From positions 13,745 through 36,630 of the forward strand of contig PALY01000092.1 of the NCBI GenBank assembly GCA_002707085.1: 22,886 nucleotides of DNA, written 5' to 3'. Under the pieces are notes generated by a model. The model did no database searches. It worked only from the letters and a program-made list of their open reading frames with translations, and was not told where the DNA came from. This DNA comes from Deltaproteobacteria bacterium (GTDB lineage Bacteria > Myxococcota_A > UBA796). Shown piece after piece: positions 3,282-15,118 of this stretch (positions are counted from its first letter, which is position 1; the number at the start of each line of letters is the position of its first letter). The position numbers and the translations under genes are program-made.

Positions 3282-3362
3282 ACAAAGTGCTTCAATGAAA
3301 TCTTGATACGTGGTACCGTCGGCGCCTGTTGGCTTATTTGAGAAGCCTGAAAGGGGAATATG
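3282..3362 (+). promoter_or_regulatory. Conserved upstream block, copy 1 (promoter/5' leader)
   Basis: This stretch aligns almost without gaps with 5903-5984 upstream of the paralogous gene. Shared sub-blocks are ACAAAGTGCTTCAA, TACGTGGTA followed by CGTCG, GGCTT and the ribosome binding site AAAGGGGAAT. Intervening bases differ freely, so the shared blocks look selected rather than merely recently copied. I could not assign a sigma-factor class. The second ATG (3363) is 6 bases from GGGG, as in the paralogue, and was preferred to the ATG at 3360. Confidence 0.45.
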
Positions 3363-5771
3363 ATGAATACGAAGATGTCTATACCGGCGTTGTTGGCCAT
3401 GTGGTCCGGCTCTGCCATGGCGATTGATACGCTGACTGTGGGCGCAAACAGTGGAAACCTTGCGACCGAGCAGATTTACTCTGAAGGTGACATTGCAGGT
3501 ACGGTATCCCACGTCAACGAATCAGACTTCAATGCGATGAGCGTCTCAGATATGATGGCGTATGATGTCATCTTGATCCAATGGGCTTCGGCTGAGAGCC
3601 TGGATACCAGTTGGGACGGCAGAATGGCCGACTATGTGTACGCGGGTGGTGGGTTTATCTTTGATGGTGACCCCAACAATGTAGGCGATTTATCTCCCAT
3701 GGTCACAAGTTCAGGATCCGGTTGTGGTTCACCGTGGGTATTCGTGGACTCCGTGGATGGGTTGACCGACGGAATTACCGAGGAGTTTGTAAACTGCCAC
3801 GTAGTCTATGACTCTTGGGACACGAGCTTCCTCAATGAACTGATGCGCGATGGCAGTGACCAAGTGGTCATGCTGTACGGTAACTATGGCTCGGGCCGCG
3901 TCATTTTGACCGGGCCAGATCAGGATTTCCACGCAAGCAAGGGTGCGGGTGGTGACTCTGGGAACCAGTACAACTTCTTGATTAACGAAATCAATTGGGT
4001 TTCAAGCGGTTGTTTGGAAGAATCATTCTATCTGGATGCCGATGGCGATGGTTATGGCGATGCATCCGAGAGCGTAGAGTCTTGTGAAGCGCCGACTGGC
4101 TATGTTTCAGACGCCACAGACTGTGATGACACAGATGGTTCGGTGAATCCGGGTGCGACAGAGATTTGTGATGGCATTGATAATGATTGTGATGGTGAAG
4201 TAGATCCGTCCTCTTCATCCGATGCATCGACTTGGTACGCGGACGTGGATGGCGATGGCTATGGTGATGCCGCTGCGACATCGGTGTCCTGTGATGCCGT
4301 GGATGGTTGGGTAGCGGATGCGACCGACTGTGATGACTCGGATGCAGCGGTGAACCCAGGTGCCACTGAGTATTGTGACGACATCGATAACGACTGTGAT
4401 GGTGAAATTGATCCATGGTGGTCAGCGGATGCGACCACCTGGTACGAAGATTGGGATGGCGACGGTTACGGCGATCCATCCCTTTGGTACACAACGGAAG
4501 CGTGTGACTTGCCCGATGGCTACACGAGCGCTGAACTGGCGACAGACTGCAACGATGTAGACGCTACGATTAACCCTGATGCGATCGAAGTTTGTGACGG
4601 TGTGGACAACGATTGTGATGGTGTGATTGATCCATCGGATTCATCGGATGCCTCTACCTGGTACGCGGACGTAGATGGCGATGGGTATGGTGATGCGGAT
4701 GCGACAGCGTTGGCTTGTGACGCTTCTGATGGTTGGGTAGCGGATGCGACCGACTGTGATGATTCGGATGCCGCGGTGAATCCAGCAGCCACAGAAGTAT
4801 GCAACGGCATTGATGATGATTGTGATGGTGTGATTGATCCATCGGATTCATCGGATGCCTCTACCTGGTACGCGGACGTGGATGGCGATGGGTATGGTGA
4901 TGCGGATGCGACAGCGTTGGCTTGTGACGCTTCTGATGGTTGGGTAGCGGATGCGACCGACTGTGATGATGAAGACGCAGCCGTCAATCCTGGTGCCATA
5001 GAGGTGTGCAACGGCATCGATGATGATTGCGATGGTGTTGTTGATCCTGATGATTCCGCTGATGCGGGCACTTGGTATGCCGATGCCGATGGTGATGGCT
5101 TCGGTGATGCTGACACCAGCATGACGGGTTGTGATGCGGATGATGGCTATGTCACTGACGACACGGACTGTGACGATACAGATGCGACAGTACACCCGGA
5201 TGCAGAGGAAATATGCGACGGGATTGACAATGACTGCGATGGAGAAGTCGATGGTCCTGATTCCAAAGACGCGATCACGTTGTATGAAGACAACGATGGC
5301 GATGGCTTTGGATTGGAGACATTCGAAGAGATCTGTGTTGAAGATGAATCCGCTTGTGATTCCGGCATGATTGACACCGGCTGTGTCGAAGAGACTTGTG
5401 ACATGGTCTCTACGGCAGTGGCTTCGTGTGACGAGCTGGAAGGCTATGTGGAAGACAACACAGACTGCGATGATGAAGACGCAGATGTGTACCCAGGCGC
5501 CCCTGGATTGGATGACGAGTGTGTCGAATTGGAAGACACGGGCGTCATGGATGACACGGGAGATTTCGAAGATACCGGTGGCGATGACACAGGCGTTGTC
5601 CCTGGTGGCGATGAAGATGCCGATGCTGACGATGATGATGAAGGCGACACCGGTGGTGACGGCGACAAGTTGGATGTTGATTGTGGTTGTGCCACAGGCA
5701 CACTGACGGGCAGTTCACCTTGGTTGGCTACACTAGGGTTGTTGGCGCTTGTTCGCCGCCGCCAAGACTGA
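3363..5771 (+). CDS. Secreted MopE-repeat protein with GATase-like N-domain, paralogue 1
   Basis: An 802-residue, extremely acidic surface protein. Order: signal peptide (1-20, cleavage after AMA); an N-domain (21-216) of alternating strands and helices with YDVILIQWAS, a YAGGGFIFDG glycine turn and GSGRVILTGP, which resembles class I glutamine-amidotransferase/ThuA-like folds but shows no catalytic Cys-His pair I can place; six MopE-type metal-binding repeats of about 63-69 residues (DGDGYGD ... DCDD ... CDGIDNDCDG); a degenerate seventh with a Cys-rich insert; DTG linkers; and a terminal CGC, hydrophobic helix and RRR of MYXO-CTERM type. Myxococcota are known to process such tails and expose the protein on the surface. 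The repeats should bind divalent metal through Asp loops held by disulfides; which metal is unknown. It is tandemly duplicated with the next gene and has its own terminator. Confidence 0.88.
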   Translation: MNTKMSIPALLAMWSGSAMAIDTLTVGANSGNLATEQIYSEGDIAGTVSHVNESDFNAMSVSDMMAYDVILIQWASAESLDTSWDGRMADYVYAGGGFIFDGDPNNVGDLSPMVTSSGSGCGSPWVFVDSVDGLTDGITEEFVNCHVVYDSWDTSFLNELMRDGSDQVVMLYGNYGSGRVILTGPDQDFHASKGAGGDSGNQYNFLINEINWVSSGCLEESFYLDADGDGYGDASESVESCEAPTGYVSDATDCDDTDGSVNPGATEICDGIDNDCDGEVDPSSSSDASTWYADVDGDGYGDAAATSVSCDAVDGWVADATDCDDSDAAVNPGATEYCDDIDNDCDGEIDPWWSADATTWYEDWDGDGYGDPSLWYTTEACDLPDGYTSAELATDCNDVDATINPDAIEVCDGVDNDCDGVIDPSDSSDASTWYADVDGDGYGDADATALACDASDGWVADATDCDDSDAAVNPAATEVCNGIDDDCDGVIDPSDSSDASTWYADVDGDGYGDADATALACDASDGWVADATDCDDEDAAVNPGAIEVCNGIDDDCDGVVDPDDSADAGTWYADADGDGFGDADTSMTGCDADDGYVTDDTDCDDTDATVHPDAEEICDGIDNDCDGEVDGPDSKDAITLYEDNDGDGFGLETFEEICVEDESACDSGMIDTGCVEETCDMVSTAVASCDELEGYVEDNTDCDDEDADVYPGAPGLDDECVELEDTGVMDDTGDFEDTGGDDTGVVPGGDEDADADDDDEGDTGGDGDKLDVDCGCATGTLTGSSPWLATLGLLALVRRRQD
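4026..5540 (+). repeat. MopE-type repeat array, paralogue 1 (6 full + 1 modified)
   Basis: Repeats start with WYADVDGDGYGD (type A) or WYEDWDGDGYGDP (type B, with two extra residues and ATDCND instead of ATDCDD). Each carries four cysteines, in the positions TxxC/xxC, DCDD, C-D/N-G and NDC or DDC. The order is first, A, B, A, A, A', then a modified last unit with extra cysteines and no CDGIDNDCDG end. Boundaries are approximate. Confidence 0.8.
4611..4970 (+). repeat. Recent 207-bp tandem duplication inside the repeat array
   Basis: Bases 4611-4763 and 4818-4970 (153 bp each, offset 207 bp = 69 codons) differ at a single position (GTAGAT versus GTGGAT in the Asp-loop). Other repeats of the gene differ much more in synonymous sites, so this copy arose or was homogenised recently. 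The offset keeps the reading frame. Confidence 0.85.
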
Positions 5772-5984: not shown

Positions 5985-8840
5985 ATGAATACGAAGATGT
6001 CTATACCGGCGTTGTTGGCCATGTGGTCCGGCTCTGCCATGGCGATTGATACGCTTACTGTAGGGGCAAACAGTGGTAACAAGGCCACGGAGCAGATTTA
6101 TTCGGAAGGCGATATTGTAGGCACGGTAGCTCACGTCAATGAGTCCGACTTCAATTCGATGAGTGTTGCGGACATGATGGTCTACGACGTCATTTTGATT
6201 CAATGGGCTTCAGATTCAAGTCTCGATGTCACTTGGGAAGGCCGGATGGAAGAGTACGTCTTGGCTGGTGGTGGATTCATCTATGATGGAGACCCCAATA
6301 ATCGCGATGATTTATATCCGCTGGTTACTGATTCGACGGGTGAGAGTTGTGGTTCCTCATGGACTTTTGTGGACTCCGTGGATGGGTTGACCGATGGCAT
6401 CGTGGAAGATTTTGCCAATTGTCATGTGAGCTACGGGAGCTGGGACTCGAGTCTCAGTGAGTTGATGCGAGATGGAAGCAGTCAGGTGATCATGCTGTAC
6501 GGCGACTATGGCGCAGGCCGTGTGATTTTGACGGGTCCGGACCAGGATTACCATGCAAGTAAGGGGGCTGGTGGGTATTCCGGAAACCAGTACAACTTTC
6601 TAATCAACGAAATCAATTGGGTGTCCAGCGGTTGTTTGGAAACATCGTTTTATTTGGATGCGGATGGCGATGGATACGGCAATGCAAGCGAGAGTGTCTC
6701 TTCTTGTGAAGCGCCCTCTGGCTATGTTTCAGACGCCACAGATTGTGATGATTCAGATGGTGCGGTGAATCCGGCTGCAACAGAAATTTGTGATGGCTTG
6801 GACAACGATTGTGATGGTGCTGTTGATCCTTCTGATTCATCGGATGCGTCGACTTGGTACGCGGACGTTGATGGCGACGGCTATGGTGATTTGGCAGAAA
6901 CTGCGGCAGCATGTGACGCACCGTCTGGGTATGTTTCAGACGATACCGATTGTGATGATTCAGATTCTGCAGTGAACCCAAGTGCGACCGAGTATTGCGA
7001 TGGTATCGACAATGACTGTGATGGGGACATTGATCCAGATGATTCAGCCGATGCGACGACTTGGTACGAGGATTGGGATGCTGATGGTTACGGAGACCCT
7101 TCGGAGTCCTTTGCGGTAACGGCGTGTTCCTTGCCTGATGGCTATACCAGCGTTGATCTGGCAACGGACTGCAATGACATAGATGCTTCGATCAATCCGG
7201 ATGCCACAGAGGTTTGTGACGGTGTGGACAACGATTGTGATGGGGCTGTTGACCCATCGGATTCATCCGATGCCTCCACTTGGTACGCGGACGTTGATGG
7301 CGATGGGTATGGCGATGCCTCGGCCTCGTCGGTGTCTTGCTATGCCACAGTTGGTTGGGTCGCAGACGCCACAGATTGCGATGACTCTGCAGCTGCAGTG
7401 AATCCAAGCGCAATCGAGTATTGTGATGGCATCGATAACGATTGTGATGGCTCAGTTGATCCATCAGACTCAGCGGATGCAACGACATGGTACGAAGACT
7501 GGGATGGCGATGGATATGGTGATCCTTCACTGTTTTACGCAACAACAGCGTGTTCGTTACCGAGTGGCTACACCAGCGTTGATCTGGCGACAGACTGCAA
7601 CGATGTAGACGCTTCGATTAACCCTGATGCCACAGAAGTTTGTGATGGTGTGGACAACGATTGTGATGGTGAAGTTGACCCATCGGATTCATCGGATGCC
7701 TCCACTTGGTACGCGGACGTAGATGGTGACGGGTATGGTGATGCTGACTCAACGGCGCTGGCCTGTGAAATCTCTGATGGTTGGGTTGCTGACGACACCG
7801 ATTGTGATGATGCGGATGCGGAAGTGAACCCAGGAGCTACAGAGGTCTGCAACGGCATTGATGACGATTGCGATACCGTGATCGACCCATCGGATGCTTC
7901 AGGGTCCTCGGCTTGGTACGCCGACGCGGATGGTGATGGCTATGGTGACTTGGCCACCACCGTAATGGCTTGCGCAGTCTCTGGCGGTTGGGTCGCTGAC
8001 TCGACCGACTGTGATGATGCGGATGCTGCAGTGAACCCTGCCGCCACAGAAATCTGTAATGGCATTGACGATGACTGCGACGGTGTCGTCGATCCGCTTG
8101 AGGCTGCTGATTCTACGATTTGGTATGCCGATGCCGATGGCGATGGCTTCGGTGATGCAGAGACCAGCATGACGGGTTGTACGGCAGAAGATGGCTATGT
8201 CAGTGACGACATGGACTGTGACGATACAGATGCGGCTGTGAATCCGGATGCAGTAGAAGTATGCGATGGCATCGATAATGACTGCAGTGGAGAAGTCGAT
8301 GGTGTTGATTCTGAAGATGCACTCACGTTGTATGAAGACAACGATGGCGATGGCTTTGGATTGGAAACATTCGAAGAGATCTGTGTGGAAGATGAATCCG
8401 CTTGTGATTCAGGGATGATGGACACTGGCTGTGTCGAAGAGACCTGTGACATGGTGTCGACGGCTGTGGTGTCCTGTGATGAACTGGATGGCTATGTGGA
8501 AGACAATACCGACTGCGATGATGAAGACGCAGACGTGTACCCAGGCGCCCCTGGATTGGATGACGAATGTGTCGAATTGGAAGACACGGGTTCGGCAGAT
8601 GACACGGGCTTTGCTGATGACACGGGCTTTGCTGATGACACAGGTTCCGCTGATGACACAGGAATTGTCCCTGGTGGTGACGAAGATGCCGATGCGGACG
8701 ATGACGATGAAGGCGACACTGGCGGTGACGGCGATAAGTTGGATGTTGATTGTGGCTGTGCCACAGGGACACTGACGGGCAGTTCACCTTGGTTGGCTGC
8801 ACTGGGGCTGTTGGCGCTTGTTCGCCGACGCCAAGACTGA
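5985..8840 (+). CDS. Secreted MopE-repeat protein with GATase-like N-domain, paralogue 2
   Basis: This 951-residue paralogue of the preceding gene has the same order of parts: identical 20-residue signal peptide, GATase/ThuA-like N-domain to about residue 216 (YDVILIQWAS, LAGGGFIYDG, GAGRVILTGP), then eight full MopE-type repeats and one modified Cys-rich repeat, a DTG linker array and the CGC/hydrophobic/RRR sorting tail. The 148 extra residues are mostly two additional repeats plus a longer linker. Both ends are far more alike between the paralogues than the middle. One repeat has GYGN in place of GYGD (first), one has DADGYGD (third) and one has DCDT for DCDG (sixth), so some metal loops may be weakened. 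It ends in a strong hairpin that also serves the convergent peroxidase gene. Surface exposure and metal binding are inferred from the families. Confidence 0.88.
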   Translation: MNTKMSIPALLAMWSGSAMAIDTLTVGANSGNKATEQIYSEGDIVGTVAHVNESDFNSMSVADMMVYDVILIQWASDSSLDVTWEGRMEEYVLAGGGFIYDGDPNNRDDLYPLVTDSTGESCGSSWTFVDSVDGLTDGIVEDFANCHVSYGSWDSSLSELMRDGSSQVIMLYGDYGAGRVILTGPDQDYHASKGAGGYSGNQYNFLINEINWVSSGCLETSFYLDADGDGYGNASESVSSCEAPSGYVSDATDCDDSDGAVNPAATEICDGLDNDCDGAVDPSDSSDASTWYADVDGDGYGDLAETAAACDAPSGYVSDDTDCDDSDSAVNPSATEYCDGIDNDCDGDIDPDDSADATTWYEDWDADGYGDPSESFAVTACSLPDGYTSVDLATDCNDIDASINPDATEVCDGVDNDCDGAVDPSDSSDASTWYADVDGDGYGDASASSVSCYATVGWVADATDCDDSAAAVNPSAIEYCDGIDNDCDGSVDPSDSADATTWYEDWDGDGYGDPSLFYATTACSLPSGYTSVDLATDCNDVDASINPDATEVCDGVDNDCDGEVDPSDSSDASTWYADVDGDGYGDADSTALACEISDGWVADDTDCDDADAEVNPGATEVCNGIDDDCDTVIDPSDASGSSAWYADADGDGYGDLATTVMACAVSGGWVADSTDCDDADAAVNPAATEICNGIDDDCDGVVDPLEAADSTIWYADADGDGFGDAETSMTGCTAEDGYVSDDMDCDDTDAAVNPDAVEVCDGIDNDCSGEVDGVDSEDALTLYEDNDGDGFGLETFEEICVEDESACDSGMMDTGCVEETCDMVSTAVVSCDELDGYVEDNTDCDDEDADVYPGAPGLDDECVELEDTGSADDTGFADDTGFADDTGSADDTGIVPGGDEDADADDDDEGDTGGDGDKLDVDCGCATGTLTGSSPWLAALGLLALVRRRQD
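6645..8579 (+). repeat. MopE-type repeat array, paralogue 2 (8 full + 1 modified)
   Basis: The order is first, A, B, A, B, A, A, A', modified last. The A-B pair occurs twice in succession, indicating that a two-repeat block was duplicated as a unit. Paralogue 1 has one A-B pair and three A-like units instead. Boundaries are approximate. Confidence 0.8.
8580..8669 (+). repeat. 18-bp coding minisatellite (DDTG linker)
   Basis: Five consecutive 18-base units encode (E/D)DTG plus two variable residues. Units two and three are identical (GATGACACGGGCTTTGCT, 8598-8615 and 8616-8633). Paralogue 1 has only a short, irregular DTG stretch here. The array spaces the metal-binding repeats from the C-terminal anchor and looks slippage-prone in frame. 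Confidence 0.8.
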
Positions 8841-8859: not shown

Positions 8860-8898
8860 AAAGTCCCTTGTTCACCTATGGTGTGAACAAGGGACTTT
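8860..8898. terminator. Bidirectional terminator shared by convergent genes
   Basis: AAAGTCCCTTGTTCAC (8860-8875) and GTGAACAAGGGACTTT (8883-8898) form a perfect 16-bp stem with the 7-base loop CTATGGT. The TAG stop of the minus-strand peroxidase gene (8878-8876) lies in the loop, so the last codons of that gene form one arm of the stem. Flanking A and T runs suit both directions. Confidence 0.85.
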
Positions 8899-10192
8899 CT
8901 GGTTGAGACTCTAAAGACGCAGCCAGGGGCGCCCCAGTCAACGCTTCAAGGAAGGTGACCACGTCTTCAACCTGTTGGTCGTCGAGTGAAACATCCAACA
9001 GCAGATCTTCTCGGTGTCCAAATTCTGGGTATTCGTTCACTTCGCCATAGTGGCGAACCACTTGCTCCAGAGTGTCAAAGTGACCTCCATGCATGAAAGG
9101 TGCAGTGAGTGCCACACTTCGGAGTGAAGGGACCTTGAACTGGCCTTGTTGTTCACCACTTGTACTGAGGTGGGCGAGTTTTTCGATGCTGGACTCTGCT
9201 GCGTCACTATAGAGGCCATCTCCACGGAAAGGGTCTTCCAGTAGTCTGATAATTCCCGTCAATCGTCCTTGGTCGCCGCCGCTAAGCCAGTCACGCTCTC
9301 CCAAGCCGATGTTGGCAAATTCACGGTTCGTAAAAGAAGGTCCGGCATGGCAAAAATGGCACTTGGCTTCACCAATAAACAGCTTGAGTCCACGGATTGC
9401 GGATTCGGACATATGGTCGTCGGTGGCTTTACCTTCCACCAATAATGCTTCAGCGAAACGGTCATAGGCGCTATCGCGGCTTACGATTTTTCGTTGAAAG
9501 GCTGCCATGGCTTTGCCAACATTTGTGAACACGATGTTGGCTTCATGTTGTGCTTCAGGTGTCATCGACATCCATGCCACTGTGTCAGGGTGGTCCGGAT
9601 CGTTAAGAACGGGTCGACCATCGGTTGGCCAAGAAGACATGTCAGGGAGACTCCCGAAGGTTTCTCTGTAGGCCCGGCTTAAGGACTCATCATTGGCCAA
9701 GTAGTGAGCCATACGAAGCCGATTACTGTCCATCTCGGCGACATCTTCAATGGGCTGGATTGCCTGGCACCATTGAGTGTCGCATCGCCCGTCCCAGAAA
9801 AACCAGCGGTTGTTGGCTGTGTTGAACAATGGCATGGAGTGTCGGTGTACTTGACTGACACCTTCGCCAAGTTTCAAACCGTCGGACCATCCTTGGGAGG
9901 GATCATGACAGGTGGCACACGAGACATCTCCTGATGAAGACAGACCTTCATCGAAAAACAGGTATTGACCCAGATGAACCGCCCAAGGATCTTCAGCATA
10001 CATGTTGGTTGGATCTGGTGTGACGTCGGGCAAAGGCCACATGGTACGCAGCATTTGAATCTCTGTTGCAGAGAAATCCATCGTTGCGGATGGAGGCACT
10101 CCTGTGTCATTCACTCCATCTGTTGGAGAGGACTTTGAGGTACATCCCAACAACAACAGCGGTGTCAGTCGCAGCAAATCACATCGAACCAT
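8876..10192 (-). CDS. Di-haem cytochrome c peroxidase family lipoprotein (CcpA/MauG type)
   Basis: A 438-residue periplasmic or surface lipoprotein: leader plus lipobox LLGC (Cys17), then two c-haem motifs, CATCH (92-96) and CHFCH (278-282), the hallmark of the bacterial di-haem peroxidase/MauG superfamily. Met367 in TAPFMHGGHFDTLEQVVRHYG sits where peroxidases carry the axial Met of the electron-transfer haem (MauG has Tyr), favouring H2O2 reduction over amine-dehydrogenase maturation. Length fits the family with a 40-residue lipoprotein linker. It is the last gene of a minus-strand operon. Its ATG lies 28 bases inside the preceding YtkA-like gene, with GAAGAG 6 bases upstream, so translation is probably coupled. 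It converges on MopE-repeat paralogue 2; in Methylococcus a surface-associated peroxidase of this superfamily is encoded beside mopE. Confidence 0.9.
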   Translation of the reverse strand: MVRCDLLRLTPLLLLGCTSKSSPTDGVNDTGVPPSATMDFSATEIQMLRTMWPLPDVTPDPTNMYAEDPWAVHLGQYLFFDEGLSSSGDVSCATCHDPSQGWSDGLKLGEGVSQVHRHSMPLFNTANNRWFFWDGRCDTQWCQAIQPIEDVAEMDSNRLRMAHYLANDESLSRAYRETFGSLPDMSSWPTDGRPVLNDPDHPDTVAWMSMTPEAQHEANIVFTNVGKAMAAFQRKIVSRDSAYDRFAEALLVEGKATDDHMSESAIRGLKLFIGEAKCHFCHAGPSFTNREFANIGLGERDWLSGGDQGRLTGIIRLLEDPFRGDGLYSDAAESSIEKLAHLSTSGEQQGQFKVPSLRSVALTAPFMHGGHFDTLEQVVRHYGEVNEYPEFGHREDLLLDVSLDDQQVEDVVTFLEALTGAPLAASLESQPESPLFTP

Positions 10193-10623
10193 GCGTACTC
10201 TTCGGCTTGCCCATCACTGCTCACATTTGCATGCAGTCGCCAATGTCCAGTCATGTGAAACTGCATGCCTGTGACGGTAAAGCTTCCATTGCCATTGCTT
10301 GTGACAGAGGCTTCTGTGTTCATTCCATGTTCATGTGCTGGCATGGTTGCATCGAAAGTGAGGGCGGCGTCAGATGCAGGTCCTTCTGCATTGCTGACAT
10401 TGAGGTTTAGGGCGAAGTTTTCGCTCAAAACGATGGGGTCAGGATCTGACGCATACTGCAGTGTCCAGGTCGACCCTTCTGTGGTGGCTTCAGTCGTGAA
10501 ATTACCATCTTCAATGGCCGTGTCATCGCCACCATGGTGATGGTGGTGATGGTCTCCTGTATCGGAAGACTCTTTTTCAGAGCAGCCCAAGACCAGAAGA
10601 AATAGCGCGAACAATTTGTTCAT
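10165..10623 (-). CDS. His6-bearing YtkA/FixH-like lipoprotein
   Basis: A 152-residue lipoprotein: leader, lipobox VLGC (Cys14), then a flexible segment with six consecutive histidines (25-30, encoded at 10551-10534 with mixed CAT/CAC codons). A beta-sandwich-like domain (about 50-147) follows with SENFALNLNVS, MPAHEHGM (94-101) and GMQFHMTGHWRLH, the pattern of YtkA-like/FixH-type periplasmic domains, where Met and His are often copper ligands. The protein ends in CCD, an additional possible thiol metal site. Its ATG overlaps the stop of the upstream 1060-residue gene by ATGA, and the peroxidase start lies within its 3' end, so it is the middle gene of a coupled trio. A role in metal capture or delivery is an inference; the family call is moderately sure. 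Confidence 0.75.
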   Translation of the reverse strand: MNKLFALFLLVLGCSEKESSDTGDHHHHHHGGDDTAIEDGNFTTEATTEGSTWTLQYASDPDPIVLSENFALNLNVSNAEGPASDAALTFDATMPAHEHGMNTEASVTSNGNGSFTVTGMQFHMTGHWRLHANVSSDGQAEEYAWFDVICCD

Positions 10624-13600
10624 AAGGTACCCAGTTTCTTCCTTCTCAAAACGCTAAATAATGCGATCGTGAATAGCCAAGAGCCGATTTTGTAGCTGGG
10701 GTTAACGGTAGCACAACCTGTTGCTCCTTTGTCCGTTTTTGACGGTGGTGGTTCAGATGTGTCCTCTTCGGGCAAATCTGCCCACGATGGCTCCGCACAA
10801 GGGCCATCGTCGTCATGAGCATCCAACCAATTGGCGATGCCATCACAATCTTTGTCGAGCAGGCCCTCTTCCGTATCTGTACGCCCATCACCATCTGAAT
10901 CCACATCCAGGTAGTTGGGGAACCCGTCTTCGTCGGGATCGTCGATGCCTTCAAATGATGTTCGGAGGCTGTCGCCATCATCGTCATTATCGATGCGATT
11001 GATAGAGCCGTCGTCATCGGAGTCGATTGGCAATTCATCAATGTCCAAGATGTTGTCTCCATCGGCATCGATGTCGATGAAATCCGGGCTGCCATCTTGG
11101 TCGGTGTCGATGACACCTTCATCTGTATCAGGGATTCCATCGTTGTCGGAGTCGATATCGATGTGATTGCCCAAGGTGTCCCCGTCAAAATCGGTATCGG
11201 TTTCGACCACTGTGTCGATACCGTCGCCATCGTCATCTGTATCCAGCCGATCGACTTGTCCGTCTTCATCTGTGTCTATCGACAGTTCATTTTGGTCCAA
11301 GACGCCATCATTGTCGGAATCTGCATCGAGACGATCTGGGATGCCATCGGTATCGGTATCTCCGAACCCTTCAATTTCGTCCCCATAGCCATCGTCATCG
11401 GAATCGGGGTCACGGTAATCGGCGATCCCGTCACCATCACTGTCCATGGTGCCTTCAATTAGTGTGGAGATACCATCGCCATCATCATCTGAGTCCAAAC
11501 GATCAATCTCGCCATCGGTATCGGTGTCGCCATCGAACTCAATGGCGTCAGGTATACCGTCATTGTCGGAATCGGTGTCGATGTAATCAGCACTGCCGTC
11601 AGAATCCGTGTCGACACTCCCTTCTATTTCATCCAAGATTCCGTCATTGTCTGCATCGACATCCAGGTGGTTGGGTAGCCCGTCTCCGTCCATGTCTTCA
11701 TCGGTTTCGATGAGTGTGGGGAGACCATCATCGTCATCGTCTGGGTCTCGGTAGTCTTCGTTTCCGTCTCCATCTGTATCAATGAGACCTTCCGCTTCAT
11801 CTGGAATCCCATCATTGTCACTGTCGGTATCGGTATGATCGGACCATCCGTCCAAATCCGTATCGATGGCGCCTTCGGTGGAGTCACCGATACCATCTGC
11901 ATCGGAGTCGAGGTCCAAGTGGTTGGGGATTTCATCTCCATCTGTATCTGGCAGGGTGTCCGCTGGATCCGTCCAATCGTAATCGTGGATCTCTATAATG
12001 GTGGGAATTCCATCATTGTCGTCATCATCATCGAATGGATCTGCCAGTCCATCGGAGTCGGTATCCGGCAGCCTGTCTCCCTCTCCAAGTTCCATCCCAT
12101 CCGGGATCCCATCATCATCCATATCTGGGTCATCAGGGTCGAGTCCCAACAGCATTTCTATTTCGCTGGACAGTCCGTCTTCATCTTCGTCATCATCTTC
12201 GGCAAATCCATTGCAGTCATTATCGAGTCCATCTACGAGTTCGGGGGCGCCGCTGTAAATGGAGTCATCGGTGTCGTCGCAATCGAGGCCACCATAGGCT
12301 TCTGCATCATGTCCATCCCTGTCTGCGTCATAGTCAGACCAACCATCGCAGTCGTGGTCGATGCCGTCGTACAAGATGTCCGTGGCGCCTACATAGCGAG
12401 TGTCGTCCTCGTCATCACAGTCGCTTCCACCACATAGATCGCTATCAAAACCATCACCATCTACGTCACATACATCTCTACCATTACAGTCTTGGTCAAC
12501 TCCGTCATATGGGATTTCGGGAGCGCCAGGCCATGTTTCAGGGTCCTCGTCGTTACAGTCACGTCCGCCGCACTCTCGAGGCTCAAAGCCGTCTCCATCT
12601 ACATCACATAGGTCTGCACCATCACAATCTTGATCGATTCCGTCATATGGGATTTCGGTCATGTCGGGTGCGAGAGTGGGGTCGGTGTCGTCGCAGTCTT
12701 CGCTTCCCGTTGTGTAGCCGGAGGGCGCTGTACAGGACACTGTCGGGTCGTCGATTGTCCCGTAACCATCACCGTCCCAGTCCCGATACCAGGTGTCTGC
12801 ATCTACCGAGGATGCGTCGTCGGTAAGGCCATCACAGTTGTTGTCTATACCGTCACACCACTCATCTGCACCGGGGTAGATTGTGGACAAGCTGTCATCA
12901 CAATCCTCGGAGTTTGTGACCCGTCCTTCTGGTTCGGTACAGGCGCGGATGTAGTCGAGAGGATCGCCGTACCCGTCCCCATCGGCGTCATCATACCAAG
13001 CATCCCCATCGGTTGGCTCTTCGTCAATGTCTCCATCGCAGTCATTGTCACGGCCATCGCAGGTTTCGGATCTGCCCGGCCGCACCCAGGATGTGCTGTC
13101 ATCACAGTCATCTCCGCCGCAACGCTCGGCGAGGTAGCCGTCATAATCCCAGTCGCAAGCTTGGTATCCCAGGCCCGTGGGTTCCCCGGAACCATTTTCC
13201 ATGACCAGAAGCCAGTCGCTTGGCCAGTCTGTGAACGTACCCCAAGCGGATGGTCCCCAATCCGACAGGTCAGTGCTTGTGATACTTCCCCACAGATAGG
13301 GTGCTTCATCGATTGTTGTCAGGGTATTGCTGGTGCCTTCCGTGCCCGAAAAATCACCCCAACTTTCGAGACCTGAGAGCGTTGTAGAGGTTCCACCGGT
13401 AGCCACCCACAAGCCCGTCCCGCCCCGTCCAATCCACAGCATGATTTGGTCCATGGTATCGATGGCGCCCTCTTCTGAACTGAGGTGGCAACTTGTAGCC
13501 AAACTGGTCACCAATATGTTTCCATCGACTGCGGGCGCCCATCTCTCTTGGGTGGCCACCAATGCGGATAAGTCACTGGTTGTGGGTGGTTCACAGCCCA

Positions 13601-13802
13601 TGTCACCGACGACAATGGCATCAAAGCCAAGAAAGTCTTCTGCAGTCGCGGCTCTCCACGCGGAGTCATCCCACACGGTGACGTAGTGGTGGGTCTCCAG
13701 TTGTGCGACTTCATCGGTTGCGGTGGGTCCGTACACGAGAACGCGCAGGTGGGACCAGCCTGTGGATGTCAGCAGGAGGATAAGCAGAGGCATAGCCGTC
13801 AC
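10620..13802 (-). CDS. Giant Asp-rich surface protein: GATase-like domain, MopE and TSP3-like repeats
   Basis: A 1060-residue secreted protein. Parts in order: short signal peptide (to about residue 17); an N-domain (18-215) whose DDSAWRAATAEDFLGFDAIV matches the NESDFNAMSVSDMMAYDVIL segment of the two plus-strand paralogues; about six MopE-type repeats (218-535), the later ones shorter and ending EIPYDGIDQDCDG; about twenty thrombospondin-type-3-like Asp repeats (536-998, DSDNDGIPD, DTDGDG); a Pro/Glu linker; and a C-terminal TGCAT, hydrophobic helix and RRKK of MYXO-CTERM type. TSP3 repeats bind many Ca2+ ions and give a stiff rod. The start is GTG; ATG at 13793 is an alternative that still leaves a signal peptide. 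It overlaps the next gene by ATGA. A TATATAT motif in the 71-base gap upstream may be a -10 element. Confidence 0.88.
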   Translation of the reverse strand: MTAMPLLILLLTSTGWSHLRVLVYGPTATDEVAQLETHHYVTVWDDSAWRAATAEDFLGFDAIVVGDMGCEPPTTSDLSALVATQERWAPAVDGNILVTSLATSCHLSSEEGAIDTMDQIMLWIGRGGTGLWVATGGTSTTLSGLESWGDFSGTEGTSNTLTTIDEAPYLWGSITSTDLSDWGPSAWGTFTDWPSDWLLVMENGSGEPTGLGYQACDWDYDGYLAERCGGDDCDDSTSWVRPGRSETCDGRDNDCDGDIDEEPTDGDAWYDDADGDGYGDPLDYIRACTEPEGRVTNSEDCDDSLSTIYPGADEWCDGIDNNCDGLTDDASSVDADTWYRDWDGDGYGTIDDPTVSCTAPSGYTTGSEDCDDTDPTLAPDMTEIPYDGIDQDCDGADLCDVDGDGFEPRECGGRDCNDEDPETWPGAPEIPYDGVDQDCNGRDVCDVDGDGFDSDLCGGSDCDDEDDTRYVGATDILYDGIDHDCDGWSDYDADRDGHDAEAYGGLDCDDTDDSIYSGAPELVDGLDNDCNGFAEDDDEDEDGLSSEIEMLLGLDPDDPDMDDDGIPDGMELGEGDRLPDTDSDGLADPFDDDDDNDGIPTIIEIHDYDWTDPADTLPDTDGDEIPNHLDLDSDADGIGDSTEGAIDTDLDGWSDHTDTDSDNDGIPDEAEGLIDTDGDGNEDYRDPDDDDDGLPTLIETDEDMDGDGLPNHLDVDADNDGILDEIEGSVDTDSDGSADYIDTDSDNDGIPDAIEFDGDTDTDGEIDRLDSDDDGDGISTLIEGTMDSDGDGIADYRDPDSDDDGYGDEIEGFGDTDTDGIPDRLDADSDNDGVLDQNELSIDTDEDGQVDRLDTDDDGDGIDTVVETDTDFDGDTLGNHIDIDSDNDGIPDTDEGVIDTDQDGSPDFIDIDADGDNILDIDELPIDSDDDGSINRIDNDDDGDSLRTSFEGIDDPDEDGFPNYLDVDSDGDGRTDTEEGLLDKDCDGIANWLDAHDDDGPCAEPSWADLPEEDTSEPPPSKTDKGATGCATVNPSYKIGSWLFTIALFSVLRRKKLGTL
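10809..12197 (-). repeat. Thrombospondin-3-like calcium repeat array
   Basis: The coding sequence is a long run of Asp-loop units alternating between DSDNDGIPDxxEG and DTDxDGxxDxxD, about 35-37 residues per double unit. On DNA level it is a degenerate GATxxxGATGG-type repeat, which produces many spurious long ORFs in the other five frames. Boundaries are approximate. Confidence 0.75.
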
Positions 13803-13873: not shown

Positions 13874-14734
13874 TTATCGTATGGCGACCATGTCAGGAGG
13901 ATCTACTTCCTTCACGATGTCGCCGTGGTACAGCGGTATCCAAAATCGGTCGCCAGGAACCAGGATGGGTGGGTCTGTCAACTTGACCATGTCGCCCCGC
14001 TTCAGAATGCAGCGCACGATGCCACGTTTGTTGAAGTTGTTGTGGTTGCCCGGATATTCGGAACGGACGTTCACGCCCATCTTGATTTCAATGGTCTCAC
14101 CTTGTCGGCCCGGGAGGTCTTTTCCAGCATAGTAGTAGCCAACAAAGTCACCGGGTTCATTGTGTGTACAACGACCATTCTTCCATGCCGGTCCGTTGGA
14201 AACGAGTTTTGGTTTCTTATGTGAGGTGATGTAGCCAGGACCACTGAGGTCGATTTTTGGCTGGGGTTCTTCCTCTACAACAGGAACCTCCACCACTTCT
14301 TCGATGGGTTCTACTGCAGCCACAGTTTCCACCTCGATGGGTGCGACAATTTCTGCTTCGGCCACCACAGGAGCAGTGTCGTTTGCACCCATGTGCCATC
14401 CAAGGACTCCAAAACCGAGTGCTACGGATGCGGCGGCTGTTGCCGTCATAAGACGCGTACGTACGATGCGAGCGCGAGCCCCCAAGAGATTGCAGACTGC
14501 TTGTAGGTTTTGATCGGTTTGGTCTGTACGAGATGCGACCACAGCAAGGTGAGGCAAGCGTCGTTTGGTTTGTGCTGTGGTGATCAAACGTTCCCAGGCT
14601 ACATCGGGTGTTGCATCTTTCGCAGGATCATCGACTCCCGCTTGGCGGGCGAGCATGGATCGGACGGAAGGATCAGAAAAGCGTTTTGCGAAAAATTCCG
14701 CAAGCTCTCGGCGTTCGGTTTCAGAAAACAGCAT
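13874..14734 (-). CDS. EAD1-like / transmembrane / SH3-like sensor protein
   Basis: A 286-residue single-pass protein. Residues 3-80 (ERRELAEFFAKRF, SDPSVRSMLARQAGV, AWERLITTAQTKRRLPHL, then a polar end with NLQAV) follow the helical pattern of effector-associated domain 1, a death-like adaptor of bacterial conflict systems. A basic stretch (RARIVRTR) precedes one TM helix (95-116), so this domain is cytoplasmic. A Glu/Val/Pro linker (119-160) leads to a periplasmic domain (about 195-280) with MGVNVRSEYPG and GDMVKL, like bacterial SH3 domains. I preferred ATG 14734, which has GGAG 6 bases upstream, over GTG 14746. It lies 71 bases before the giant repeat gene on the same strand and may head that operon. 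No EAD-bearing partner is in the window. The domain calls rest on pattern reading and are moderate. Confidence 0.6.
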   Translation of the reverse strand: MLFSETERRELAEFFAKRFSDPSVRSMLARQAGVDDPAKDATPDVAWERLITTAQTKRRLPHLAVVASRTDQTDQNLQAVCNLLGARARIVRTRLMTATAAASVALGFGVLGWHMGANDTAPVVAEAEIVAPIEVETVAAVEPIEEVVEVPVVEEEPQPKIDLSGPGYITSHKKPKLVSNGPAWKNGRCTHNEPGDFVGYYYAGKDLPGRQGETIEIKMGVNVRSEYPGNHNNFNKRGIVRCILKRGDMVKLTDPPILVPGDRFWIPLYHGDIVKEVDPPDMVAIR

Positions 14735-15118
14735 GGTGGGCTCCACAGTCTTGACATGACAAGCCTATACCAAAAGTAGTTTCTTGAAAAGGGGTATAGC
14801 TATAGACAATCGCAACACGCTGTCGTATTTCGGGCCTACAAGGGAGAGGGAGAGGCTGTCGGACGTTCAGTTTTTATTTCGAACTACTTCGTAAATTTTC
14901 TCATTTTGCTCTTGGAAGTGTGCATTTGAAGATCAAAGTAGGACCTACACAATCATTGAAATGTGATGTGTCGTTCGACGAAAACTTTCTTCGATAGAGT
15001 GGTTTGCGAGGATATGCGGCTATTTCGGTCACAGGGGATTCATGCTGTCACTCATCACCATCGATATTCACTTTGCAATCGGCACCCTGTGGGGTGTTTT
15101 GCGAATGATGGCTGAGGG
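14735..15118. other. Divergent intergenic region between the EAD-like gene and trpG
   Basis: This 384-base gap must hold promoters for both directions. I see a 7-bp inverted repeat (CTATACC 14765-14771, GGTATAG 14793-14799) overlapping the palindrome TATAGCTATA (14795-14804), placed 30-70 bases before the EAD-like gene and so operator-like. The middle (14860-14960) is AT-rich without a convincing -35/-10 pair. The last 77 bases belong to the short ORF annotated at 15042. No RNA gene is recognisable. Confidence 0.5.

Follow-up and report, generated by a model that had tools for sequence, protein, structure and literature searches.

The stretch of DNA considered here (the window) comprises 22,886 nucleotides of a Deltaproteobacteria bacterium placed in Myxococcota_A (assembly GCA_002707085.1, contig PALY01000092.1, positions 13,745 to 36,630). 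It carries on its minus strand a trio of overlapping genes that encode a giant secreted protein with MopE-type and TSP3-like repeats, a YtkA/CtaK-like lipoprotein and a di-haem enzyme of the MauG/MbnH type. An earlier sequence-only reading had noted that the three genes overlap head to tail, and the coordinates confirm this: the giant and ytkA genes share four nucleotides (ATGA), and the ytkA and enzyme genes share 28. In the direction of transcription, the features of the trio are:

10620..13802, minus strand: gene for the giant secreted protein (1060 aa), with a GTG start, although translation more likely begins at the in-frame ATG at 13793
13158..13748, minus strand: N-terminal domain of the giant, residues 19-215, matching no Pfam family at E 0.01
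10165..10623, minus strand: gene for the YtkA/CtaK-like lipoprotein (152 aa), with a lipobox, LVLGC, recognized by inspection
10534..10551, minus strand: run of six His, residues 25-30, within the linker that follows the lipid-anchor Cys
10321..10344, minus strand: motif MPAHEHGM, residues 94-101, predicted copper ligands from conservation
10240..10257, minus strand: motif HMTGHW, residues 123-128, predicted copper ligands and the invariant Trp128, from conservation
8876..10192, minus strand: gene for the MauG/MbnH-type di-haem enzyme (438 aa), matching PF03150 at 1e-37
9905..9919, minus strand: haem motif 1, CATCH, residues 92-96
9347..9361, minus strand: haem motif 2, CHFCH, residues 278-282
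9047..9049, minus strand: Tyr382, aligned to the axial haem ligand Tyr294 of MauG

The pair of lipoprotein and enzyme is the widespread core of this system, and the giant is a local addition. This reverses the earlier description of the lipoprotein as the added component. Among 78 named loci retrieved through the enzyme alone, some of which begin right at the enzyme (L217, L241), ytkA lies just upstream on the same strand in 67, and the N-terminal domain of the giant is found in none. By record title, these loci span the Myxococcota, Planctomycetota, Pseudomonadota, Chloroflexota and Verrucomicrobiota. Within the phylum of the window, YtkA accompanies the enzyme in 54 or more of its 100 best matches. 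At the level of the order, 23 of 58 genomes hold the enzyme at E 1e-40 or better and every one of the 23 also has a YtkA match, some on different contigs, while a YtkA match is present in 17 of the other 35, in several cases adjacent to an enzyme that is more divergent (these were counted by hand from the result tables, as were the 42 contigs and 19 NHL loci given below). The two proteins are even fused within one open frame in L212, where the YtkA part was identified by a custom profile and motif and not by Pfam, and in L230 YtkA is instead fused to an NHL-repeat protein. Two records titled Klebsiella pneumoniae (L207 and L250) carry this environmental enzyme family and are probably mistitled; the L207 enzyme clusters with the oxidase-operon enzymes of the order of the window.

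In many relatives of the window, the pair lies at the end of an operon for a terminal oxidase. The sample from the phylum comprised 61 sources (the window, L069-L108 and L159-L178) chosen for enzyme or YtkA matches, such that only the shares of genomic context are meaningful; 54 contain the enzyme and 45 the pair. The order ctaG, ytkA, enzyme occurs in 21 of these 61 sources, 10 of which present the full set of ctaA, ctaB, COX2, COX1, COX3, COX4/cytochrome c, ctaG, ytkA and enzyme. The gene names are based on Pfam in L083 (COX15-CtaA, UbiA, COX2 with a cytochrome c domain, COX1, COX3 and Caa3_CtaG), with CtaG confirmed by Pfam in four further loci, and genes beyond the Pfam-checked ones were named by their resemblance to L070, L083 and L089 proteins; crude gene calls underlie part of the locus data. 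The oxidase-linked enzymes lie on one side of a tree branch with a support of 99. The window itself has no ctaG or oxidase gene near the trio, where the giant occupies the place of ctaG upstream of ytkA, and the CtaG family PF09678 was unmatched in G000-G003, of which G000 is the source genome (72% complete; 3.87 Mb in 165 contigs). A second pair in G000 (G000:C113:14601-16308; L089) follows genes for an SdhB-like iron-sulfur protein and a FAD-binding subunit, and the matching arrangement in G002 (L091) has the pair behind a succinate-dehydrogenase-like iron-sulfur gene. Elsewhere, a large secreted protein of NHL type ends 48-261 nt before the YtkA domain in 19 of the 78 named loci, almost all of which have Planctomycetota titles, the NHL identity having been checked with Pfam in L195 and L230 only. 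A further secreted family is found near the pair in 25 Planctomycetota loci (L188, L189, L201, L210, L229, L231 and L234 among them), often directly downstream.

The conserved residues of the two partners were examined across 113 enzyme and 97 YtkA sequences, which are not all independent because some named loci share contigs with unnamed ones (e.g., L182, L187 and L252). Both haem motifs of the enzyme are invariant (C92, C95 and H96, and C278, C281 and H282, in 113/113), and the residue at position 382 is Tyr in 112 of 113, while the peroxidase sequences compared have Met at this sixth-ligand position. As judged from the alignment, the haem-ligand position is MauG-like, unlike the classical bacterial cytochrome c peroxidase with its Met. 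The first description of this protein as a di-haem peroxidase needs correcting on this point, and the enzyme is probably also a lipoprotein, its lipobox Cys17 being present in 11 of 11 aligned sequences. The AlphaFold2 model of the enzyme has a mean predicted local distance difference test score (pLDDT) of 90.6, and its structural Z scores are as high to peroxidases as to MauG; a ranking by structure therefore cannot separate the two. The enzyme also falls outside the named families, scoring 146.2 bits against the MauG equivalog TIGR03791 (cut-off 443.85) and 151.8 bits against MbnH TIGR04039, far below its cut-off of 362.85. The surface Trp199 of MauG, which lies two residues before the second CXXCH, corresponds by offset to Ala276 of the window enzyme, and hole hopping via that residue is therefore unsupported. 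In L102 (G027:C230; crude gene calls), two convergent enzyme genes lie approximately 3 kb apart, neither with YtkA.

The lipoprotein of the window matches PF13115 with 39.7 bits against a cut-off of 25.9 (E 7.7e-10), and this family is detected at E 0.001 in 51 of the 61 YtkA proteins of the relatives, leaving 10 unmatched. Its predicted fold is nearest to that of CrdA and not to a cupredoxin electron carrier, with weaker matches to the copper proteins FetP/P19, PmoD and CopC also appearing in the fold lists; an MbnP chain is absent from these lists, which excludes nothing. Three residues of the first motif (M94, H97 and H99) and three of the second (M124, G126 and W128) are present in 97/97 sequences, whereas M101 is found in 78/97 and H123 in 85/97, L212 and L194 having been excluded from these residue counts as their frames run on. 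The His-rich linker is less constant: of the 79 YtkA proteins whose lipobox Cys is aligned, 10 have at least three His there, a figure that includes one duplicate contig. The protein is probably a copper-binding β-sandwich lipoprotein, a reading drawn from YtkA and not from MopE: it follows from the CrdA fold, the CtaK family, the conserved Met and His residues and the ctaG neighbours in relatives. Nineteen of the 97 YtkA proteins, that of the window included, end in Cys-Cys, and another YtkA type, with at least two Cys in the loop that follows the copper motif, accounts for 15 of 97, all 15 in ctaG loci.

The trio is a narrow but real and conserved coupled unit. It is carried by 3 of the 377 genomes searched in the phylum (G000, G002 and G051), which belong to two families, and the giants of the relatives are 57% (G002, over 1042 residues) and 49% (G051, over 774) identical to that of the window, the latter value covering only the available length as the G051 contig begins within the gene. 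The stop codon of the giant gene and the start codon of ytkA overlap by four nucleotides in all three genomes (ATGA, GTGA and ATGA), and the three enzymes, 46-60% identical, cluster in the tree with a support of 94. That G002 and G051 hold a homologous trio with the matching xTGA overlap argues for more than chance, and the coupling proposed earlier, which had been staked on the trio not being absent from every relative, is borne out. The L093 contig starts inside its giant gene, leaving the first part of the gene unseen; this locus, which was delineated by crude gene calls, was missed by the stricter repeat pattern and was counted by other means. On another contig of G051 lie ctaG, ytkA and the beginning of an enzyme gene, in this order, and G051 therefore possesses both the trio and the oxidase-type arrangement.

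The giant is composed of its N-terminal domain, approximately six MopE-type repeats (PF11617; 159.9 bits in six stretches), approximately 22 TSP3-like repeats and a hydrophobic C-terminal tail ending in basic residues. Its composition, with 261 Asp and 12 His among 1060 residues, would suit calcium better than copper. The sequence-only reading had taken the pairing of a MopE protein with a di-haem enzyme as its argument for copper, and the precedent in Methylococcus, where mopE is co-transcribed with the gene of a di-haem protein, is correct (PMC3912023, available in part, as are the other papers cited here by PMC number). The giant, however, shares with MopE the repeat only. The copper ligands of MopE* are Kyn130, His132 and His203, while its residues 1-46 are invisible in the crystal and the first 24 have been associated with a weak binding of Cu(II) (PMC3423442). 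The sole match of the giant to a MopE structure is to chain residues 1-46 of 2vov (MopE*; E 0.0016), and as this match stops at residue 46, the giant by sequence lacks the kynurenine-His-His copper domain of MopE and CorA. The MopE name by itself carries little information in this organism because the repeats (342 candidates, 150 scored) are spread over at least 42 of the 165 contigs of the genome. Of the surface copper and redox system envisaged earlier, copper and redox remain the best reading, with the evidence now coming from the lipoprotein. An N-terminal His of the mature giant was considered as a copper brace and rejected, being present in the window and L090 and absent from the other copies with a visible N-terminal end. 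Searches for the N-terminal domain yielded a total of 18 copies, with 5 of the 63 order-level and 14 of the 377 phylum-level genomes carrying it; three copies (in G000, G002 and G051) directly precede ytkA and the enzyme gene.

The surroundings of the trio, including the two MopE-repeat genes that converge on it tail to tail as first described, contain the following:

5985..8840, plus strand: convergent MopE-repeat protein (951 aa), a neighbour
3360..5771, plus strand: second MopE-repeat protein (803 aa), a neighbour
8860..8898, strand-neutral: near-perfect hairpin at the convergent gene ends (-26.1 kcal/mol, z -6.87)

The hairpin is a candidate two-way terminator, and scans for promoter and terminator consensus sequences gave a signal no higher than in shuffled sequences. 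The plus-strand MopE-repeat proteins score 16.3 bits against the MYXO-CTERM tail model TIGR03901, below its cut-off of 20 bits, and the giant does not match it. Upstream of the trio by 71 nt, on the same strand, a crude gene call at 13874-14746 encodes a 290-aa protein with a weak match to EAD1 (effector-associated domain).

Copper proteins encoded with MauG-type enzymes are known, and what is new is the combination, YtkA/CtaK together with a MauG-type enzyme that belongs to none of the named families. The home of the pair in a caa3 operon is unexpected, and the pair is locally extended by a giant secreted protein. The closest parallel is the mtoX-SCO1/senC-mauG module of the copper enzyme methanethiol oxidase, which likewise unites a client, a copper chaperone and a MauG-like enzyme in an operon, with SCO1-MauG fusions in some genomes (PMC5739008). 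Here, the chaperone is of the YtkA/CtaK type rather than SCO1, and the neighbour is a MopE/TSP3 giant, an NHL protein or caa3 oxidase rather than MtoX. The MbnP-MbnH system (TIGR04052/TIGR04039) is also a conserved, copper-associated pair of a partner and a MauG-like di-haem enzyme (PMC3621798), with an MbnH structure available (6e1c, by entry title). The present enzyme is separated from it by the TIGR04039 score and by YtkA as its partner, the MbnP models of NCBIfam being unmatched by the YtkA, giant and two plus-strand proteins of the window or by the 61 YtkA proteins, a comparison that was not extended genome-wide. The MopE-SACCP and CorA-CorB systems of methanotrophs similarly place the gene of a secreted protein, co-transcribed in their case, with one of the di-haem BCCP/MauG family (PMC3912023, PMC3423442), and MopE has its repeat motif in common with the giant. 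Unlike these systems, the trio has a copper lipoprotein gene in between and a giant with no match to the kynurenine-copper domain, and outside the trio clade the pair lacks the giant altogether. CtaK (YtkA) of Bacillus subtilis is a YtkA-domain lipoprotein with conserved His and Met residues and a His-rich stretch that, with Caa3_CtaG, serves caa3 oxidase, consistent with the position of ytkA directly behind ctaG in relatives of the window; the available parts of these sources mention no di-haem enzyme with CtaK (PMC9145763, PMC13344008). CrdA of Helicobacter pylori (9ll2/9ll4, by title) shares the fold and keeps the positions of Met94, Met101, Met124 and Trp128, but not H97 and H99. No paper describing a pair of YtkA and di-haem enzyme was recognized among the matches listed from open-licence PMC text, and the pair is apparently undescribed.

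On balance, the pair is probably a copper-and-oxidation cassette, in which a lipid-anchored chaperone of the YtkA/CtaK type and a lipid-anchored MauG-type enzyme act together on a client. This proposal is built on observed gene order, overlaps, residues, distribution and fusions, along with the predicted fold, and from these we infer the copper binding, the chemistry and the client. By analogy, the best reading is that the pair would work like mtoX-SCO1-mauG, with YtkA replacing SCO1. YtkA would hold Cu(I) in a Met/His site formed by M94, H97, H99 and M124, often with M101 and H123, and in some members the His-rich tail may assist. The enzyme would activate peroxide at one haem, store the oxidizing power on the His/Tyr haem, and spend it on the copper-loaded chaperone or the client through oxidation of Cu(I), a disulfide or an aromatic residue. 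The commonest recognizable client in the phylum would be caa3 cytochrome oxidase, where the cassette follows ctaG, and in the lineage of the window the giant, tied to a copy of the cassette by overlapping genes, is a candidate client or surface scaffold. A far-reaching version, which we regard as unlikely, is that of a general system coupling copper delivery to oxidative modification, which would finish the CuA subunit of caa3 oxidase or its chaperone in Myxococcota and would have been re-aimed in side branches at giant secreted proteins (MopE/TSP3 here, NHL in Planctomycetota), yielding proteins with copper or protein-derived cofactors.

A simpler explanation is plain peroxide defence, in which a peroxidase stands beside a terminal oxidase, the copper lipoprotein is its electron donor or a separate guard, and nothing is matured. 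The invariant Glu153 (113/113), the equal structural resemblance to peroxidases and the operon shared with a terminal oxidase in relatives all agree with this, as does BthA, which has a Tyr ligand and reduces H2O2 according to the part of its description available. The near-invariant Tyr in place of the Met of the compared peroxidases and a YtkA fold closest to CrdA rather than to an electron carrier speak against this reading, and pairing and fusion appear tighter than detoxification would require, leaving defence a doubtful explanation. It is distinctly less probable that the chaperone is itself the substrate, the enzyme oxidizing Trp128 of YtkA (e.g., to kynurenine) and so completing a high-affinity Cu(I) site. 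A finishing of the copper site of this Trp-to-kynurenine type has been proposed for MopE and CorA and has reportedly been found for MbnP. Trp128 is invariant and lies four residues from Met124, the enzyme has the MauG-type haem ligand, and kynurenine is found at the copper site of MopE* and CorA beside such enzymes (PMC3912023, PMC3621798). The equivalent Trp is nonetheless present in CrdA and in 33 of 33 YtkA proteins without an adjacent enzyme gene, the latter a weak control as those genomes have the enzyme elsewhere. Trp128 was consequently rejected as proof of kynurenine formation, being unspecific.

Whether the cassette acts on the giant is a separate matter, as a genome rich in MopE repeats may simply have placed a surface protein before a self-standing cassette, with the three proteins not acting together. 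The abundance of the repeats and the absence of the N-terminal domain from the named loci favour such a passenger, and YtkA was not found in the 6-20 kb surrounding any of the other 15 copies of the domain, among which a single weak enzyme match lies approximately 8 kb away (L135). Against it stand the homologous giants with their four-nucleotide overlap, retained across two families in which the enzymes have diverged to 46-60% identity, and the other large secreted protein, of NHL type, in the equivalent place in the Planctomycetota loci. A passenger giant is accordingly a tangible possibility, albeit one that we do not favour.

That a terminal-oxidase operon ends in the gene of a MauG-type enzyme, immediately preceded by two copper-assembly genes, points to a step in the assembly of a respiratory copper site that is unmentioned in the parts of the assembly-factor literature examined. 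The coupled trio raises the question of the client that such a cassette may serve, and the natural fusion of L212 presents both of its proteins in a single construct.
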